From NCBI GenBank assembly GCA_000310025.1, contig FN649727.1:3096201-3122811 (forward strand): 26,611 nucleotides of DNA. The letters run 5' to 3'. The position numbers and the translations under genes are program-made. This DNA is from Ectocarpus siliculosus. Its lineage: Eukaryota; Sar; Phaeophyceae; Ectocarpales; Ectocarpaceae. The notes beneath the pieces were generated by a model. The model had not been told where the DNA came from and searched no databases. It worked only from the letters and a program-made list of their open reading frames with translations. This document shows positions 6,944-26,611 of the stretch, in pieces. Position 1 is the first letter of the stretch; the number at the start of each line of letters is the position of its first letter.

Positions 6944-9095
6944 CAAAGTTCGTAGCCGCCGCGTCTCTTCGTCAGAAAGAGAAGAGGCGACTGGCGACCC
7001 TCTTTTTTTTTTTTTCGGCGTTTGATAGTGTTTTAGACTGGATCGACGTACGTACGCACGACATGGTACTTTGCTGAGGTGTTGTTGCCGAAGGGGAGAA
7101 AGAGAAGGCGGTATTTTCGTGCGTACGTTCAACGTTCAACTACATTTTACGTCAATATGTCTGAGATCACCATACGACGACTCTTGTTCCGCCCTCTGTA
7201 CTACCCCACCACTACCGCCGACCCCTTTTCTTCGCCTGCTGCTGTCTGCCTACAGCGCCTTTGTCTCATTCCGTACCGCCCTTGGATGTATGTATCTACC
7301 GCAAGCACGGAAGAACGGAAAAAGTGTAGAGACGAGAGGCGTAAAGACAGAATAGACGTATGCAAAGCTTGTGTCGGCTCGTCGGCTACCTTCTTTCAGA
7401 TTCTGCAAACACGTCTGCCATGTATCTATGTAGCTCCGATCACAGCATCAGCTCTTCGATTCCTTGTGTAAAGAACGGTTATTCCTGATAGTCCCTGCCG
7501 TCATGCTGACGCGCAGCGCCCTCCCACGACGTGCGTGTGTGTGGGTTCCCCGAGCTCTGGGATTTTGAGGCGTGTGCACGGATTGTCCGGCGTTTGTTTT
7601 TGGCCAACAAATCCACCGCCGACTAGACTACTCTGCTGTACAGCAGCAGCAGCAGCAGAGTGATTTGAGTTGAGGTTTTTGGATGGCCCGAGAAGAACAG
7701 AGTGAGCGCGGACGCAACCCATACCCCAACTCGGCCCTGCCCCCCGTGATCCGTGGTCGTATTAGTTAGAGTCCTGTGGCCAGCTTGTATGAGATGCTCG
7801 GATGTCTGGCGTCGCACCCACGGCCTTGGGAACATTTTTTTTACCAGACTGCTGTCATCATAGAGACGCAAACAGACCTGAAAATCCCACACCACCGCTC
7901 CACCGAACACACAACAAGGAAGCTGTAGATTGGCGCCATGTGCATCGCCCGCGTGCGCGACCCTCCTCTCCACTGCACACACACGCAGCCGATGCACGTG
8001 GAGAAGCTCACATGGGAAGGGGAGGATCGCACAAGGGAGATGATAGTCAAGTAGCGGCGGCAAGCGTCCAATGTGTTCGGGACGGCGGTGTGGGGAAAAT
8101 GTAGTTGTACAGCAGATCGAAAAGATGAAGAGAACCGCCCTCTGCTGTCAGCCGTCGGATGATGTTCTTTTTGTTCCAAGATACGTGATCGAAAGGATCG
8201 AAGATGTTTGCACACGCGTACACCCGACAAACGTCATCATCGACGACGATAACTCTTCGATGCCTCACAACGAGATATGCATACGCATACATGTACAGCA
8301 GTAGATACACATGCATCGGGCAAATTTAGCAGTTCTTGACTCTGAAGATCGATGGACGCCAGATGTACAATGGGACCTACAGCAGGTGTTGTGTTTGGTG
8401 TGTACCGCAGGTTGGGGCGAAAAAGACCGAGATCCGTTGTAAATAGTCCAAAATCCTTAGACTGCTGCTGTTCACTCTTTTGGCTATCATATTACATCCA
8501 GGAAAAAATACAGACACAGATGGACGACTCGTTGGAGATGTACCGCAGAAGTCGAAGGGGATGTGTTGAGTCTTTGCAGTGAGTGGAGGGAAACCGGCTG
8601 GGTACTGGGCTCATTTGAGTCTGTAACACTGATGATATTGATATAGAAGTACTATTTGTACCAGTGATCGTATCCAGAAGTTCCTGTTGGCAAGGATCCT
8701 GTTGGCAGGGATCTTCGCTGCTTGGGGGAGACTACGTACTTGTACAGTAGTCGCAATTGGTGTGCGCGATCGTAGAAACGCACACAGTAGTAGACACACA
8801 GAGTAGAGACTGCTGTCATCAGGATCATTTCGACGATAGTTGGATATCGAAAATCCGGAATGTCTCCAGCAAGACAAACACGTCTCTATGCTGCTGCGTG
8901 TCTCGCTTCTCACGATATGGACCGTTTTCGGTTTTTTTCTGTCATCTGTCCGCTTGCCTTCCTCACATGAACTTGATTTTGTCATGTAGAAAAAAACACG
9001 AACGTTTTCTCTTCAAAGCGAAAAGCCTTTCCGGTGCCTGCTCAGTAGCTACCGATACAACGACGCGAACGCCTTCCGTGGTCACAGGCCAACTA
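6944..9095. other. Long stretch without a supported gene
   Basis: Short ORFs occur on both strands, but none carries a recognisable motif or a consistent exon chain. The first part could be a long 3' UTR of the candidate gene ending at 6943, as brown-algal UTRs are long. A pure CAG run lies at 7641-7658. Confidence 0.35.
7641..7658. repeat. CAG microsatellite (6 units)
   Basis: Six CAG units directly after CTGTA, not inside a supported reading frame. Confidence 0.9.
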
Positions 9096-9240
9096 CAGTC
9101 GAGGTTTTAGTGCCGGTACGTGCACAGAGCGTTCGCCGGCACTAAATCGGGCACCCGGCACTATTGCGAATAGTGCCAAAACGGCACTATTGAGGGCTGG
9201 CCAATCCCTCATTAGTGCCGGTACCGGCACTAATGAGGTT
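9096..9240. repeat. Left terminal and subterminal repeat array of the Tigger-like element
   Basis: The TIR is followed by at least seven copies of TAGTGCC or its complement in both orientations. The array ends with a perfect 32-bp palindrome at 9207-9238 centred on GGTACC. Confidence 0.85.
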
Positions 9241-9435
9241 GTGTTCGATTTATGGTGTAGCGCCCACGCTTACGGGGCCAACAAAGAACGAAATGGATCG
9301 ACACTATTACTGTACTGTTGAGTGAAGTTCCAGCATGGGCGTGGGCAGAGTTGAGTTTTCTTTTTGTTGTCTTGGGGCGCTCTTTGGTTCTTGATTTTCT
9401 TCTGCACCTCACTTATTTGCTTATTTGTGTACTGT

Positions 9436-9770
9436 CGTCGGGACAAATTCTCTCCTGTTTGCCTGGCGCACCCGCTTCGATGTTGCAAGAAAAAAAAAAC
9501 GACAAGCACGACAGGCAGCGCACCGCAAAAAATCAAACACCCGTTACCACAGCTGTAACCCCTGCCCTCACTACTGTACGTCGGGACAAATTCTCTCCTT
9601 TTTGCCTAGCGCACCCGCTTCCATGTTGCAAGAAAAAAAAAAAAATGACATGCACGACGGGCAGCGCACGGCAAAAATCAAACAACCGTTTTTTTAGTGC
9701 CACAGCTGTTCCCCGCCCTTACTCCGTAGCAACAAACTCCCTCATGTCTGCCTGGCGCACCCGCCTCTTG
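9436..9770. repeat. Triplicated 3' end of the transposase gene (about 143-146 bp period)
   Basis: Three tandem units begin at 9436, 9579 and 9725. The first two share GTCGGGACAAATTCTCTCCT, TTGCCTNGCGCACCCGCTTC, an A-run, GGCAGCGCAC and CACAGCTGT. The third is the real coding end of the minus-strand gene (residues RRVRQADMREFVATE). The outer two are therefore duplicated copies of the stop-codon region, now lying downstream of the stop. Confidence 0.8.
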
Positions 9771-11418
9771 GAATGCGCTGCAATCATCGCCATCTTCGCT
9801 TTCGCTAGGTAGAGCGCCGCGTCTCCATTGCCGCTCTCCTCTGCTGCCGCTTCCAGGACGCCGAAGTGAGACGACAGTTCACCATAAGCCGGTGGGACAC
9901 GGCGCGCGAGCCCCGTGTTGTCATCGCCGCTGTCCTCCTCCTCGTCCTCCTCCTCGCGGCCGGTAGACACTCGAGTCCCAGCCAGCTGTGCCGTCATGTC
10001 TTCCACCGTATCCTCTCTGAGAGCCTCAACCACTTCATCGTCGTCCTCGATGGTAGCCCACCCTTGAATCGCGTTCACCGCTTCCTCCAGGAGCGGCTTT
10101 CCGGGTTCGATGCGGAGTTCGGCGATGAGTTCGGCGATGTCCTCGTCCTCGATTTGGGTACCCTGCTTGTGCGCCTCGTGCACGCTCGTGCTCAACGTGT
10201 TGAGAGTCTCCGTGAAAGCCTTCAAGGTAGGCTCGGCGACGTGGAACTGGGACTTTCCGTGTTGCTTGGTGAGCTCAGCGGCCATCTCGTCCGGAAGAGT
10301 CTCGGCTTTGACAAAGCACCTGATCCCAGGTAGCGCAGAAAATGTCATGCATACGTTTGTGGGTGGACAACAAGCGGATGTTAGATGAACTCAGGGACGA
10401 TCAAAGACTCATAGGCGGGGGAGGACTCAAGTTTTTGCGAAAAGCAAAGAAGATATGTATTCGGATGTTGGAAAACTCAGTCGAAAACAATATAATCTAT
10501 CCGTACAACCTTACCCACGTTACCTTTGTACCACCAAAGCTATGTGCACCAAGGCGCGAGTTGAACAGTTTACATTATAAACAGCGATTGCACATGCTCA
10601 AACCTCACCTGGCGATGTCCTGGGCGGTGACGCTGGCCCATGCTTTCTGGAGAAGTTCAGCGGCATCCCGCACGTGAGGTTGGTGCCCTTGCGCCAGCCC
10701 CATTGTCCCGGCCTTCATTTTGCGAGCTTTGGTCTCGGCAAAAATGGGGAAAGGGAACAGAGAACAGGGAACAACTTGACAAGAGAAGAAGAAAAAAGAA
10801 CAAGAACATCAGATAGACGAACAAGGCTACAGAAAAAGGTCCTTGCAAAAAAGAAAACTCTTTGCAAACAAGGCCCGGCAAAAAAAAAAGGCAAAGAAGG
10901 CGCGGGAACTACGCGTATTTTTTTGAAAAACAACAGCAGAGTAGCGCACCTCCCGGATTATTGCCTGTGCGCACGTTTTTTTTGCTTCCTCCGCGTCCTG
11001 CAGCAGCCTCGGTCTCGTACTTCTTCCTGTTCTTCTTCACATCCCGGACCAACCGTTCCGAGCACTTGAAGCGATCTGCTATCTGCTCATGAGTCACCTT
11101 CTGATCCATCAGCTTCAGCATCTCACACTTCGCTCTGAAATCTGGCCGCGCACGAGGCTGAGACTTGTTACTCCCCCCATTCGTGGCCTTCGGGCGTTTA
11201 GATTGTGCCTTCCCAGTGCTGTCTGCTGCTGACACTTTGCGCTTGCCGGCTTTGGCGACGCACGCGCTGCAGATGCGGTGATTCTCGTTGCCTACATCAA
11301 CCACACTGCCGCAAATGCCGTGCAGTCGCCCGCCACATCCTCCCTGGCAGCCGTGACCATGAGGGTCTTGCGGCGTGGTGTCCTGTAGTTGGCACAGTTC
11401 ACCTTCCGCACAGGGCAT
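9719..11418 (-). CDS. Pogo/Tigger-like transposase-derived protein lacking the DDE core (3 exons)
   Basis: Exons on the minus strand are 11418-10975, 10733-10609 and 10319-9719, with GT-AG junctions; together they give 389 residues in one open frame. Residues 1-60 hold a Cys-rich, zinc-binding-like region (GCQGGCGGRLHGICG ... CSACV). Residues about 95-135 are a CENP-B/pogo-type helix-turn-helix (KCEMLKLMDQKVTHEQIADR, then FKCSERLVRDVKKN). Exons 2-3 match the end of Tigger-type transposases (LLQKAWASVTAQDIARCFVK), then an acidic tail and a basic C-terminus (AALYLAKAKMAMIAAHSKRR). The roughly 200-residue catalytic segment expected between HTH and this end is absent; the 240-bp intron in its place is pyrimidine-rich and non-coding. 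The product could bind the element's ends but probably not cut. The exon 1 donor (GTGCGC) is weak. Confidence 0.72.
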
Positions 11419-11534
11419 GGTACGCCCCTGTGTAGAGCTGTTCGGGTCTGCAGCAGCACGTGTACCCTATTTCTGTGTGTGGAGTCTATGTTTTCTGCCC
11501 TGGGTTGTGCGTGTGTGTGTTTCGCGCGTGCGGA

Positions 11535-11705
11535 GTACCGGCACTATTGGGGGTGACAGCAGTGCCGAATCGGCACTATATCGGGCATGCTTTCATTAGT
11601 GCCGGTCTGGCACTATTGAGAGCTTCGCCTGTGTGCAGAGATTTTACCGGCACTATACCGGGCATCTGGCACTATTCAACCGGCACTAAAAGGGTCCCTC
11701 GACTG
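11535..11705. repeat. Right terminal and subterminal repeat array of the Tigger-like element
   Basis: At least six ACCGGCACTA/TAGTGCCGG-type motifs precede the right TIR, mirroring the left array. They lie just upstream of the transposase-derived gene start (11418), so they may also serve in its promoter. Confidence 0.85.
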
Positions 11706-12095
11706 TACCCAATACGGACGAAACGGAAAAGTTTCCCCAGTAAATTTTGTGCTACAATATATCTCGTGGTAATTGTCCAACTCAAACTCAGCAAGTCTTC
11801 TCCTTTGAGTACGATCAAATCGCAATAAGACCGGACACAAACAAAAGTACCTAGTTTTTGTATCCTGAGGCCGAGGACGTCGATGGCGACAGAACCCAGG
11901 GCGTTCATAGCGTAACCAAAAGCCTGAGATGAGAGTCCCCAAGACTCGCGAAAAGTCGAAAAAAAAATGTTCCTCGACCACAAAATAATGTGCCTGGGCA
12001 CAACCGAAAAAGCACTTGAACAGAGAAATCCAAAAAATGCGGCGTCGATTAAGCCACAGCCCCCAGCTAAAGGACAAAGTATTTTAGGCTCAGCT
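11706..12095. other. Spacer between two elements, no supported gene
   Basis: A minus-strand ORF crosses this stretch but runs into the transposon's right TIR and has no recognisable domain, so I do not call it. Confidence 0.35.
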
Positions 12096-15530: not shown

Positions 15531-15847
15531 TTACCCGGAACCAACGCAGTTGAAGTGTTGACGGGTAACGAAACCATGACGATGAGACAACGGTGTGCAA
15601 TGCAAGGCCCTGTTGTCGACGTGGTCCTCGTTTTCGATGTCTTGAAAGAATAGATTGCGTCCTTGATCCAGTACCTCCCCACCTGCACTCTTGAAAAGAC
15701 AACAGAAATGAAATGCCACGGGTGCAAGCTACAAGATATAGCCGTTGAGCAAGGGTTATTGTCTGTGTAGCCCCCTACATAGTTGAACGTCTTGAGAAAC
15801 AAAGAAGCACGCTGGCCGTGCGTATGGTCGGGAGACCCGCCGAGCAA
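15531..15847 (-). pseudogene. Possible 2OG-Fe(II) oxygenase (prolyl 4-hydroxylase-like) remnant
   Basis: Two minus-strand segments in different frames resemble consecutive parts of the prolyl 4-hydroxylase fold. Around 15760-15820 is ASLFLKTFNYVGGYTDN, like the strand ending in GG-T. From about 15692 down to a TAA at 15531 is GGEVLDQGRNLFFQDIENED, then VDNRALHCTPL and FVTRQHFN; the RALH histidine would be the distal iron ligand. A pyrimidine-rich acceptor (TGTCTTTTCAAG) precedes the second segment. The proximal HxD motif is not clear and the frame is broken between the segments, so a decayed or partial gene is likelier than an intact one. The assignment rests on motif memory only. Confidence 0.3.
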
Positions 15848-15997
15848 ACGGCTCTACGTCTAGATGAGACGGCGAGACTAACGAAGAGGGAAGCAAAGAG
15901 CCGTCACAGCGTGGCCAAACACCGAAGAAGTGCAACGATCTCACCCCCGTCGTCCCCCCACACACACACACTTTGCTTGCTCGTTTTCGCAACAGCA

Positions 15998-16099
15998 ATG
16001 CTTGGACCCCCGGTATACGGGCACGGACACATGCCGGGGATGCCGCCCGTGTACACAATGGCCGCGATGCAGCCGGGGGCGCCGCACCCTCAGCACCAC

Positions 16100-16132
<33 letters not shown>

Positions 16133-19100
16133 GCGCCGCTGCAGCAGCAGCTCTTGGCACAGCAGGCGGAGGAGATGAGGAAGAGCGCGAAGCGAGCGGC
16201 TAACCGCAGGAGCGCCAACACGTGCCGGCTCCGAAAGAAGTTCTTCGTGGAGAACATGGCGGACGCGAACGAGCGGATGAGGAAGAGGGCGCGGGTGCTG
16301 TCCCTCCTGCCGGACATGATCCTGGCCATGCGGCGGGACGGGGTCATAACCTACGCCAGCGAGAACTGCCGGCAGTTTCTGCAGTTCACGAGACAGGTTT
16401 GTGCATGCGTGTGTGCTTGTGTGCGTGAGTGTTTTTGTTATTAGCATCGACCGCGCTAACCGGCTGACCAATGAACAGACGTCAGTTTCTGTGCGGTTGA
16501 AAACACGAAACACTTCTTAATGCCATGAACTGGGACCCCGTGAGGGGGCAGCATAGGGGGGGCTAAGCTATTCTCCGGATCAAAGACAGAAACGGTAGCA
16601 ACAGAGAATAATTGCACGTGTGTGTGTGCGTCAAGAGTTAAGAGGGATGCCGTTGCCTGGCGCCTGAGTGGGTCGCCTTGCTCGGAAGGCGTAAAATGCG
16701 GGACATGGAAACACCTAGAAGCGTGTGTACTGTACCTGCCACAAACAAGCGTGTTGCTCCATTTTTGTGTGGGAGTTTTTTTTCCTGACCCGTGTACAGG
16801 AGCAAGAACGCCGCGATGGAAAACGGCAAAAGCTGTTGCCCACGTAGATGCGTCCATTGTGGACCATTCATTGCTTGTTTTGACACCCCTCGGCGCTACA
16901 AACCTGTGCACACACGCCGCGCAGGAGGTGGAAGGCACCAACATCTTCGACCTCGTGGAGAGCGGGAGCCACAACCGTCTCCGCCGGCTGCTCGAGGAGA
17001 ACCTGGGGTCGGTCAGCAAGGAGGCCATCGCGTCGGCGCTGCGACACCAGGGCACGACCTTCGAGTCCCTCCTCGCCCGCGCCGAGAAGGCCAAGGAGCA
17101 GGGTGACTTTGGATTCTTCACGATGAGTGGGGAAGCCCCGCGGTTTCCGGGGCCGACACGAACGGGCAGGGGTGGCGGCGGCGGCGGCGGCGGCGGCAGC
17201 GGAGTGGGAGACATGGGCGGCAGCACGGACGACTGGGAGAGCGAAGCCGCGAGCTTGGCGGGCGAGAGTCAGGGCCGCAAGACCGGCGCTTCGTCCAGCA
17301 GCGGCGGTGGCGTAGCTAGCGGGGGGAGCAGCGGCGGCGGGCGAAAGATAAAGCGATGGAGCACGGTGGGGAGCAGCGGGAGTGGGGGCCTGAGCGACAG
17401 CAGCAGCGGAGGCGGCGGGGTAGGAGGAGGAGGAGCAGGGAAGGGGAAAGACGCATGGAAGTATCGAAGATCGTTTCCCCCGCTTGGCCCACCAGCGTTT
17501 CCCGTAGTAGCAAGTGGGGAGAGAGTCACAGGAGGGGGGTCGGCAGCAGCGGGGGGGGGGGGGACGCAGTCGGGAGGAGGAGCCAACGGCGCGGCGGGAG
17601 GCACGCGGCACGCAAAGGGCGGTGGTTCTCTTTTGCCGGAGGGAGCGAAGGCGAGAGAGGTCGGGGGGGCGGCGAGGAAGCTCGAGCTTTGCTCTGATGC
17701 ACAGGGCGAAAGGGCTGGAGGCGGCCCAATTAGCGGTGGGAGTGACGGCGGTGGCAGCGGCGGCGGCAAGGCGAGCATGGTCAACGTCGACCGCGACCTC
17801 CAGTCCAAGATCAACGCGTTCACCAACACCCAGAAGGTGAGCGAGACCTATGTTTGGCCTTGGTTCTCCACAGTTTTGTGGGACGGGGGTCGGCTTGCGC
17901 CGGAGGGGATGGTGGGAGACAGAGTGAATGGTGGCGTATTTGGTGACAGAAGTTAGGTGAAACGCGCCGGCGACCCGCTTTGTGACGTCGGCGCGTGCTG
18001 TGTTTGGTTTGCGCTTTTCGTTCAAGCCGTCAAGGGAAGATACAGACCGTCTGCCCGGCTGTTGACCATTGCTATCTGATGGATGACTGATGCATTTATC
18101 CGACCGTTGTGATGGCAAAAGGCTCTTGCGCTAAAGCATGCCTACTGCTCGCCCCACCCATCCCCCCACACACCGTTTTCTTAACTTTGAACTTTTTGTT
18201 CTGTTCGTCAAATAAAAATAAGACTCGTCCGTGAGCTTGTGTGGCGAGTCTGATGCGCCCAAAAGGCGTAAAGCCTGACGTCTAGAACGCATGGGACGAC
18301 GCACACACATGTGTTTGCTGCGTGTTTTACCTCGGGGATCAACGTCCCTCCCCCCCGCCAACCTCCAACACGCGACACACAACAATGACCAGGACTTGTG
18401 CAAGCTGGAGATCATGAGGCAGGACCAGAAGTTCGAGTGGTACGAGGTCCGCAGCTCGATGCGCCTGGCGTGGCTCAAGGCGAAGCAGATGATCATCCCC
18501 GTGGAGGTGATCTGCTCCTTCCAGCAGATGCACACCGATTGTCCCGCGGGGAGCGCCAACGGCATCGTCGCTCGGCTCCAGAGGGTAAGTGGAGCGGAGG
18601 GGGGGGAGATAGAGAGAGGCCGGTCGGAAAGGAGGGAGGCGGAATATCGTGATTTGAGTATGCAACAGGCGAGAGAGAACACACGTTACACGACAGAGAG
18701 AGGTTCAAGGAGTGAGAGGATGAACTTGGTTATTTCGCGACATGTGGGGGATGTGTGGGCAGACAGGGCTGCACCGGACGCAGGCAAGCACGCCGGCCAT
18801 AGATAGCGCTGGCACGTGGAAGAGAATGTGACGAACACACCCCTTTATGGCGAGTCAAGAGCTTTTTGTTCCCCCGCATTTGAACGGAAAGCGCGCTGTT
18901 GGAGGGGGGGGGGAACTCTTATGTTTGGCATGCCTTAGCCGTTACACAATTGATCACGCGTCCTCGAGAGGACGGAGCATTGTTCCCACAGGACCTATCA
19001 CCGATGACCAATCGTTCCTTCCTACTTTGCCAACGGTGGCTCAAAAAATGGTCCCTACCCTATCTATCCTATCGATATCACTTCCCACCTTTTCAACCCA

Positions 19101-24634: not shown

Positions 24635-26611
24635 GAACCCGGCGTGCTCCGTCCCGGCTTTGTAGGGATGCGAGGTCAATGGTTTAAGGATTACGGCATG
24701 CACGACTATGAGTACCCCCCCCCCCCCTCCTACTAGAAAAGGAGTTCACTGAGGACGAGGTTGAGGCGTGTGTGAACAAGCTGCAGTGCCACAAAGCAGC
24801 AGGGGCGGATGGGATAGTCAACGAGTTCATGAAGTTTGGGGGGAAGGGGATGATCCAGCTGATGGTACTGCTGTACAACTGGGTGTGGAAAAACGAGTAT
24901 GCGCCAAGTAGATGGAGGGAAGGAGTGGTTGTGAACTTGTTTAAGAAAGGAGACAAGACTGACCCAGGAAACTACAGGGGTATCACACTGTTGAACACAG
25001 TAGGAAAAGTGTTTTGTAAGCTGCTGAACGATAGGATAGTGGGAGTATTGGAGAAGAAACGTAGCATTAGTGAGGGCCAGGCAGGTTTCCGACAGAAGAG
25101 GGGGTGCGTAGACCACGCATTCACGGTAGGGAGAATCATCCAAGGTAGAAAGAGGGCGGGAAAGCGGACGTACTGCTTCTTCCTGGACGTGAAAAAGGCA
25201 TACGATACCGTATGGAGAAATGGGCTGTGGAAACAATTATCCAAGTACGGGATCAAGGGGAAAATGTGGAGAGTGCTGAAGAAGATGACAGAGTGTACGA
25301 AAAGCGCGGTCATGCTAGACGGAGAACTTTCTAAATTCTTCGACATTGAGCAAGGGGTCCCACAAGGTTGCACGCTGTCCCCAACGTTGTTCCAGGTGTT
25401 CATCAACGATCTGTTGGAAGTCGTAGAGGCAGTCCGGAAGGGAGTAAAAGTAGGGGACACGGAAACGTTGGTGTCAGGAATGCTGTTTGCGGATGATTTT
25501 GTTGGTATGTCGGACACCCCTGAGGGACTGCAACTGCAAATTGACGCGGCGAAGAAGTTTACTGATAAGTGGAGATTGTCTGCCAACGTTACGAAGAGTG
25601 CCGTCATGGTATGCAACGAGGGCAGGGAGGAACCAGTAGAACATAGATGGAAGTGGGGGATCGAGGAGATTGCAGTAGTGGACTAGTACACATACCTCGG
25701 AGTAGAGATCGCAAAAGATTGCTCGTGGAATGCACACATGTCCAAGGTAGCGGAAAAGGGCAAAGAACGAGCAGGGAAGCTGCACCCAATACTCGCAAAC
25801 CGGCACCTTGATACACGCATCAAATTGGCGGTGTTGAAGAGCGTAATCGTACCGCCGCTAGAGTACGCCGGAGAAGTATGGGAAGGAAATAAGAAGGTAG
25901 TGAAAGAACTCGAGGCGGCGCAGATGAAAGCAGCGAAAATCATCCTAGGATGCTCCAAGCGCACAAGTAATGCAGCAGTCAGGGCAGAATTGGGGATCCA
26001 ATCCCTACGGTCGGGAAGAGACGTAAGGAAGCTGACATGGCAGTATCGCATGTGCGGGATGGGAGAGGAGAGGTTGCCGAGAATAGTATGGGAGGCGAAG
26101 TGGGCAAACAAAAAGAGGGGTAGACAACCCACGGAATGGGTCAAGGTTGTAGAGGACGTATGGAAGGGATTGGACATCGACGAAGATGAAACGCTGGAAA
26201 CGGAGGGTCTACAGGGGTTCAAGAAGAAGATATCTGTTGCTTGCGCCGACAGAGAAGAACATAATCTAAGGAAAGAAACCAAGGGTAAGGAGGGTCTAGA
26301 AGTGTACGGAATGTTGAAAGAAGGAATAGGGTTCAAGGATTACCTACATGGACCAATGGATGCAGGGACAAAGCTTAAGGTCAAATTCAGGACCGGGGAC
26401 ATAGGCCTTCGCGAACGTCGACGAAGACATAGGACGGTAGACGACGAAGACGATAAGTTCAAATGCGATTGCGGCTTCGAATGCGAAGACAGTGTTCATG
26501 TAGTCGCGGAATGTCCGTGGTACGAAAAGGAGAGGGAAGTGTACATGACTGAGCTGGGAAGAATACAAGTGACGTACAGGGAGATGTTTGAGGCATGGAA
26601 TAGAGAGGAGA
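24635..26611 (+). pseudogene. LINE (non-LTR retrotransposon) ORF2-like reverse transcriptase, partial, one in-frame stop
   Basis: Open from after a TGA at 24632-24634 to the window end, except for a single TAG at 25684-25686. The RT domain shows the expected order: CHKAAGADGIVNEFMKFGG, FKKGDKTDPGNYRGITLLNT, SEGQAGFRQKRGCVDH, the catalytic FFLDVKKAYDTVW (motif A), GVPQGCTLSPTLF (motif B) and FADDFVG (motif C). After the stop the frame resumes at YTYLGVEI and runs through the thumb/connection region to a C-terminal zinc knuckle (CDCGFECEDSVHVVAEC). No endonuclease is visible upstream, so the copy is 5'-truncated or decayed there, and the 3' end lies beyond the window. The encoded enzyme would copy its own RNA at a nicked target. 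A fragment of the same family sits at 18990-19690. Confidence 0.92.

Follow-up and report, generated by a model that had tools for sequence, protein, structure and literature searches.

A pogo-superfamily transposon copy in Ectocarpus siliculosus that lost its DDE core is very probably a recent internal deletion derivative

Introduction

Does a transposon that has lost its catalytic core, and still shows one open reading frame, encode a protein with a role of its own, or is it a by-product of transposition? Elements of this kind commonly undergo internal deletion, which normally accompanies cut-and-paste transposition. The locus that raises the question lies at positions 9096-11705 of a 26,611-bp stretch of the Ectocarpus siliculosus genome (contig FN649727.1), which was analysed as a whole and is called the window here. 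Based on the letters of the window, the original prediction described a complete pogo/Tigger-like transposon whose DDE segment had been replaced by an intron, and whose product could act as a repressor, compete for the element's ends or have been taken over by the host.

The families distinguished within the pogo superfamily include Tigger, pogoR, Lemi, Passer, Mover and Fot (PMC7386202; PMC7325037 is a further source on the superfamily). The catalytic spacing is given as DD29-36D for Tigger, DD29-59D/E for pogoR, DD29-42D for Lemi, DD35D for Passer and Fot and DD36D for Mover (PMC7386202). For Ectocarpus, 17 families of Mariner-Tc1 elements with almost 12,000 copies, most of them non-autonomous, have been reported, and introns in their transposase genes are mentioned (PMC12477816).

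Ends and flanks of the element

The element comprises 2,610 bp, begins with CAGTCGAGG at 9096, ends with the complement of this motif up to 11705 and is bordered by TA on both sides:

9094-9095, no strand: left TA target-site duplication (sequence read)
9096-9125, plus strand: left terminal inverted repeat (comparison with close copies)
9207-9238, no strand: perfect palindrome with 16-nt arms (repeat comparison)
11692-11705, minus strand: right terminal inverted repeat, CAGTCGAGGGACCC (sequence read)
11706-11707, no strand: right TA target-site duplication (sequence read)

TA together with the end motif was found at both ends in all seven close relatives that were cut end to end (L001-L004 and L006-L008; TA at one end belonged to the search pattern), and inspection of both ends of L001-L004 with their flanks gave the same picture; the motif of L001 has a one-base change. 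Because seven close relatives carry TA and the same end motif, the ends in the window are not a chance match, and the predicted TA duplications and matching ends are confirmed. Five nucleotides that are present in the other close copies, after about position 9105, are absent from the left end of the window copy, which may lower its mobility.

The first 305 bp of the element gave at least 65 matches in the genome (40 of 136 candidates scored), some of them second matches within one copy. Several TAGTGCCGG-type repeats, among them the palindrome at 9207-9238, lie near both ends. In the 3' non-coding part of the element (9436-9788), two units 143 nt apart share 95% identity, and a third unit 146 nt further on is 61% alike (64-nt reference). 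A search of the window for RNA families gave no match at curated thresholds.

Internal deletion and longer copies

Using the inner 1.8 kb as a genome query, we found at least four copies whose halves are 96-100% identical to the query and lie about 1.2 kb apart (40 of 201 candidates scored). The break in these four copies falls at query position 1041, which is position 10740 of the window; other copies break elsewhere. The search for longer copies with a DDE core, which the original prediction had proposed, thus yielded L001-L004. They are 96-99% identical to the window on either side of 10740 and carry an additional 1.22-1.23 kb at 10740/10741; L005, a more distant copy, also has about 1.2 kb extra at this place. 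The window copy, which lacks this segment, is therefore not a complete element, as had been claimed.

The missing segment begins within intron 1, of which it takes the 3' part, and includes the greater part of exon 2 with DDE_1. All three catalytic Asp residues lie within it; the loss of the DDE segment was correctly recognized. That the core had been replaced by an intron had to be rejected, since the four close longer copies hold the missing segment in place and show there intron 1 followed by a 325-codon DDE exon (322 codons in L001). By comparison with these copies, intron 1 became joined to the end of the DDE exon through a single deletion, which left the following gene parts:

10950-11418, minus strand: exon 1 with the Cys-rich stretch and the helix-turn-helix (HTH), up to the conserved donor of the family; HTH_23 match just below cut-off
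10974-10975, minus strand: donor boundary of the original prediction, GT in 10 of 40 sequences only
10741-10949, minus strand: remnant of intron 1, 5' part (comparison with longer copies)
10740-10741, no strand: internal deletion junction, one base shared between the two sides (comparison with L001-L004)
10609-10740, minus strand: remnant of exon 2 with its final 44 codons, which follow the third catalytic Asp and lie inside the last part of the DDE_1 match
10320-10608, minus strand: intron 2, GT/AG boundaries aligned in L001-L004, one changed base inside the L003 donor
9722-10319, minus strand: exon 3, which encodes the acidic C-terminal region (Pfam: nothing above cut-off)

As predicted, the Cys-rich stretch, one HTH and the C-terminal region were kept; a second HTH-like region was lost with the catalytic residues. 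The window copy has no DDE catalytic core of its own, as an autonomous element would. Its junction at 10740/10741 was spanned by this copy alone (34 of 34 candidates scored), and amplification of the deletion was rejected on these grounds.

The parent transposase and its family

The parent element is about 3.8 kb long and carries three exons, which encode a Cys-rich stretch with an HTH, a second HTH-like region with the DDE core, and an acidic tail. Pfam analysis identified DDE_1 in exon 2 of the longer copies (E 2.4e-30 in L003, 2.2e-27 in L001) and of L021 from a sibling subfamily (E 7.8e-29), with a catalytic triad of D-110-D-31-D (DD31D) in the parent. The matches to DNA-binding domains were all sub-threshold: HTH_23 in exon 1 reached 22.0-23.6 bits (cut-off 24.6), HTH_Tnp_Tc5 in the deleted segment 17.9-19.0 bits (cut-off 22.2) and CENP-B_N about 13 bits (cut-off 21.2). 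The Cys-rich start and the acidic exon 3 had no Pfam match above cut-off, and a search for relatives of exon 2 among solved structures gave none up to E 1.

Among the long copies, L001 has all three exons open, exon 2 being shorter by three codons; frame breaks occur in exon 1 of L002 and L003 and in exon 3 of L003 and L004. The sibling subfamily is 73-74% identical in DNA and has many copies (40 of 201 candidates scored), several of which have all three exons open (e.g. L021-L025, but not L027, L029, L031 and L032). Its long copies L021-L031 are closely similar and apparently recently active. Between the subfamilies (L001 or L002 versus L021), dN/dS is 0.44 for exon 1, 0.28 for exon 2 and 0.40 for exon 3, which indicates that the three-exon parent gene, exon 3 included, has been under coding constraint.

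TA duplication, DDE_1 and the DDxD spacing place the parent in the pogo superfamily, with its DNA-binding domains below curated cut-offs. In the terms of PMC7386202, the parent copies resemble this superfamily in TA duplication, matching inverted ends and the order of a sub-threshold HTH, a sub-threshold HTH_Tnp_Tc5-like region and DDE_1. The pogo part of the predicted label holds; the Tigger part is one possibility among several, as DD31D falls inside the published ranges of Tigger, pogoR and Lemi alike, and it differs from the DD35D of Passer and Fot and the DD36D of Mover (PMC7386202). Unlike known pogo elements, the parent has a Cys-rich start and an acidic exon 3 that Pfam leaves unmatched above cut-off. 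Like most of the Ectocarpus Mariner-Tc1 copies described in PMC12477816, the window copy is non-autonomous, and the parent transposase gene has introns, as mentioned there for transposase genes.

Splice junctions in the window copy

Joining 11418-10975, 10733-10609 and 10319-9722 indeed gives 389 codons, so the predicted arithmetic is correct; 10975 as the end of exon 1 did not stand. GT occurs at this donor (10974) in 10 of 40 sequences, compared with 37 of 40 at a site 25 nt downstream (39 relatives and the window, out of 70, in which the end of exon 1 was picked up by a peptide pattern). We therefore assign the exon 1 donor of the family to the downstream site. The three sequences without GT there are L003, which has a changed base, and L009 and the window, which have an extra G each. 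In the close alignment, the extra G of the window (at about 10954, just before the conserved donor) is a private insertion, absent from at least eight of the nine other rows, with L010 ending short of the site.

When the conserved donor is combined with the predicted acceptor, translation stops at 181 codons; the next acceptor gives 395 codons to the natural end, and other acceptors lead to frames of 367-411 codons to the natural end despite the extra G. Nine AG sites lie between the deletion junction and the exon-2 donor, of which four give a frame to the natural end from the predicted donor and three from the conserved one. Since all three pieces of the 389-codon frame were already open in parent copies and several donor-acceptor pairs work, the open frame does not exceed chance expectation. 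A DDE-less protein from the window copy is possible on paper, but the predicted junctions 10975/10733 are not supported.

Age and origin of the window copy

In 2,608 compared columns, the window copy has 11 private substitutions (4 in exons, 7 elsewhere), and so few changes mark it as young. Selection on this copy was rejected as a conclusion from private changes, 4 coding and 7 non-coding ones being too few; by manual reading, two of the four in exons are non-synonymous, again too few to inform.

We conclude that the window copy is very probably a non-autonomous member of a pogo-superfamily DNA transposon family that arose recently through internal deletion, because L001-L004 match both sides of 10740 so closely and carry the DDE segment. 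The comparison shows that a deletion with one base common to its two sides brought intron 1 next to the final 44 codons of exon 2; it may have arisen in faulty repair after excision, and the element would be mobile at most in trans, by the transposase of longer copies. The 389-codon frame would then be a by-product of pieces that were open beforehand, with the coding constraint placed in the three-exon parent gene because of the dN/dS values between subfamilies. If the transcript were spliced, its product would have the first HTH and no catalytic residues, and might interfere weakly by binding or dimerising. Two observations count against a plain deletion, namely that frames of 367-411 codons can be reached and that in-frame fusions in the family exceed one third.

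Other deletion derivatives and the repressor question

The second observation comes from other family members, in which the DDE core was lost by different deletions (L006 and L007, L008, L013 and L014, L015 and many more). We compared 48 sequences in a hand-picked rather than exhaustive set, consisting of 37 matches to exon 1 and exon 3 within about 3 kb, 10 others and the window; L046, with exon 1 only, was added to the hand-picked set. Classes were assigned by hand from frames and peptides: 20 loci are in frame, 12 are out, three are ambiguous (L048, L062 and L032), and the window was kept apart. Twelve loci fall outside these classes (L040-L046, L069, L011, L012, L020 and L059). Counted by structure, the distinct junctions into exon 3 are:

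In frame (14): L008; L013/L014; L015; L053/L056; L055; L057; L064/L065; L066; L006/L007; L038/L039; L033; L050; L051; L058/L060
Out of frame (10): L034; L047; L052; L061; L063; L068; L035-L037; L049; L054; L067

L057 was counted as in frame since the break in its reading frame precedes the junction; L066 was classed from low-identity matches.

Several of these derivatives retain one open frame. L008 (G000:C479:48480-50700) has 232 codons from the first Met and keeps the HTH, reading across the donor into the acidic tail; L013 (C138) has 245 codons from the first Met, also with the HTH and into the acidic tail; L015 (C165) has 156 codons from the first Met, with most of the HTH absent. At their junctions, the frames of L008 and L013/L014 include a few bases of the intron, and in L006 and L007 the N-terminal part is in frame into exon 3 through exon 2.

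Such structures recall the internally deleted P elements of Drosophila, of which KP encodes a 207-aa protein with repression described in PMC7776569 and PMC12393704. By analogy, DDE-less copies, the window copy included, would make proteins of N-terminal and C-terminal parts that occupy the ends or poison multimers and thereby damp transposition. We consider this explanation unlikely, and the evidence is divided. The window copy retains exon 1 and the HTH within it, the N-terminal part runs in frame into exon 3 in L008, L013 and L006 and L007, and the KP protein is a published precedent. The best support within the family, although fragile, comes from the 24 distinct junctions, 14 of which keep the frame (binomial P 0.010 versus one third).

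The fragility has several sources. The loci were hand-picked, and under other ways of counting the excess shrinks to 13 of 23 (P 0.019, L008 merged with L013/L014) or 14 of 27 (P 0.036, L048, L062 and L032 counted as out). Microhomology also favours in-frame joins, because the exons share a codon bias. In a control made of all breakpoint pairs in the exons of L001, L002 and L021 (exon 3 without its final 100 nt), the in-frame share was 0.37-0.41 for pairs sharing at least two bases and 0.39-0.51 for pairs sharing at least four, a share modelled over all such pairs. Against shares of 0.37, 0.45 and 0.51, 14 of 24 gives P 0.027, 0.134 and 0.304. The in-frame excess is thus weakened, since microhomology without selection predicts 0.37-0.51.

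The structures themselves also argue against repression. In six of the 14 in-frame structures (L015, L053/L056, L055, L057, L064/L065 and L066), little or nothing of the exon 1 HTH is left, as read from exon 1 ranges and peptides. Amplified derivatives include the out-of-frame L035-L037 and the intron-joined L040-L045, and in-frame derivatives have decayed, with two stops in L014, a stop after the junction in L050, frame breaks in L056 and L057 and exon 1 breaks in L051 and L058. The window copy has an extra G before the conserved donor.

As in KP and other deleted P elements (PMC7776569, PMC12393704), the window copy lost the catalytic part and kept a putative N-terminal DNA-binding part, the first HTH; its second HTH-like region is gone too. 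Unlike KP, for which those sources describe repression and which comes from another superfamily, the window deletion was found once. Repression or competition by a window-copy product is possible. It appears unlikely that the family as a whole sheds its DDE core repeatedly by deletions with a tendency to leave the N-terminal part and the acidic tail in one frame, that the resulting HTH-plus-tail proteins damp transposition as KP does for P elements, and that the window copy is a young, splicing-dependent member of this set. If this were true, the HTH-plus-tail set would consist of L008 and L013 as one frame and of L006/L007, L038/L039, L033 and L060 by splicing; L015, L053, L055, L064 and L066, with Cys-rich start and tail only, would work, if at all, through those parts.

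On its own, the window copy has little import, being an ordinary deletion derivative. The family offers more: with long copies, a sibling subfamily with open genes and about two dozen deletions in one genome, it would allow a direct test of pogo self-regulation by truncated proteins.

Some copies have other structures. The ends of one apparent copy, L009 and L010 (G000:C19:324353-348876), are separated by about 24 kb on one strand, which would fit a large insertion within the copy. L011 (G000:C21:1844400-1848400) contains an inverted internal exon 1 segment adjoining a run of N, and at G000:C2:3283183-3284618 two matches to exon 1 face opposite ways at a distance of about 0.6 kb and represent two copies in inverted arrangement. 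L040-L045 all belong to one derivative, present six times, whose intron 1 adjoins exon 3 directly; it was amplified although it is not a simple in-frame fusion.

Assembly error and host take-over as improbable alternatives

Alternatively, the DDE segment of a full-length copy could have been dropped during assembly, and the extra G could likewise be an assembly error. The 10740/10741 junction was seen once. We regard loss of the DDE segment in assembly as very unlikely, as private changes stand on both sides of the junction and the family contains many comparable deletions with different breakpoints.

That the host has taken over the locus as a DNA-binding protein, another suggestion of the original prediction, is extremely improbable: an open frame exists on paper, but the transposon still has its ends (one of them 5 nt short) and its TA flanks, the mobility signals that a domesticated copy would have lost, its structure was found once among the 34 scored candidates, and it carries 11 private substitutions as well as an extra base of its own close to the exon 1 donor.

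Other features of the window

Further along the window, positions 24712-25683 contain a reverse transcriptase frame (RVT_1, E 9.5e-33), which probably belongs to a non-LTR retrotransposon; Pfam gave no match for the open stretch that follows (25687-26610). A frame at 15749-16441 shows a weak PAS match (E 0.015, below cut-off), preceded by a basic stretch that we take to be bZIP-like.
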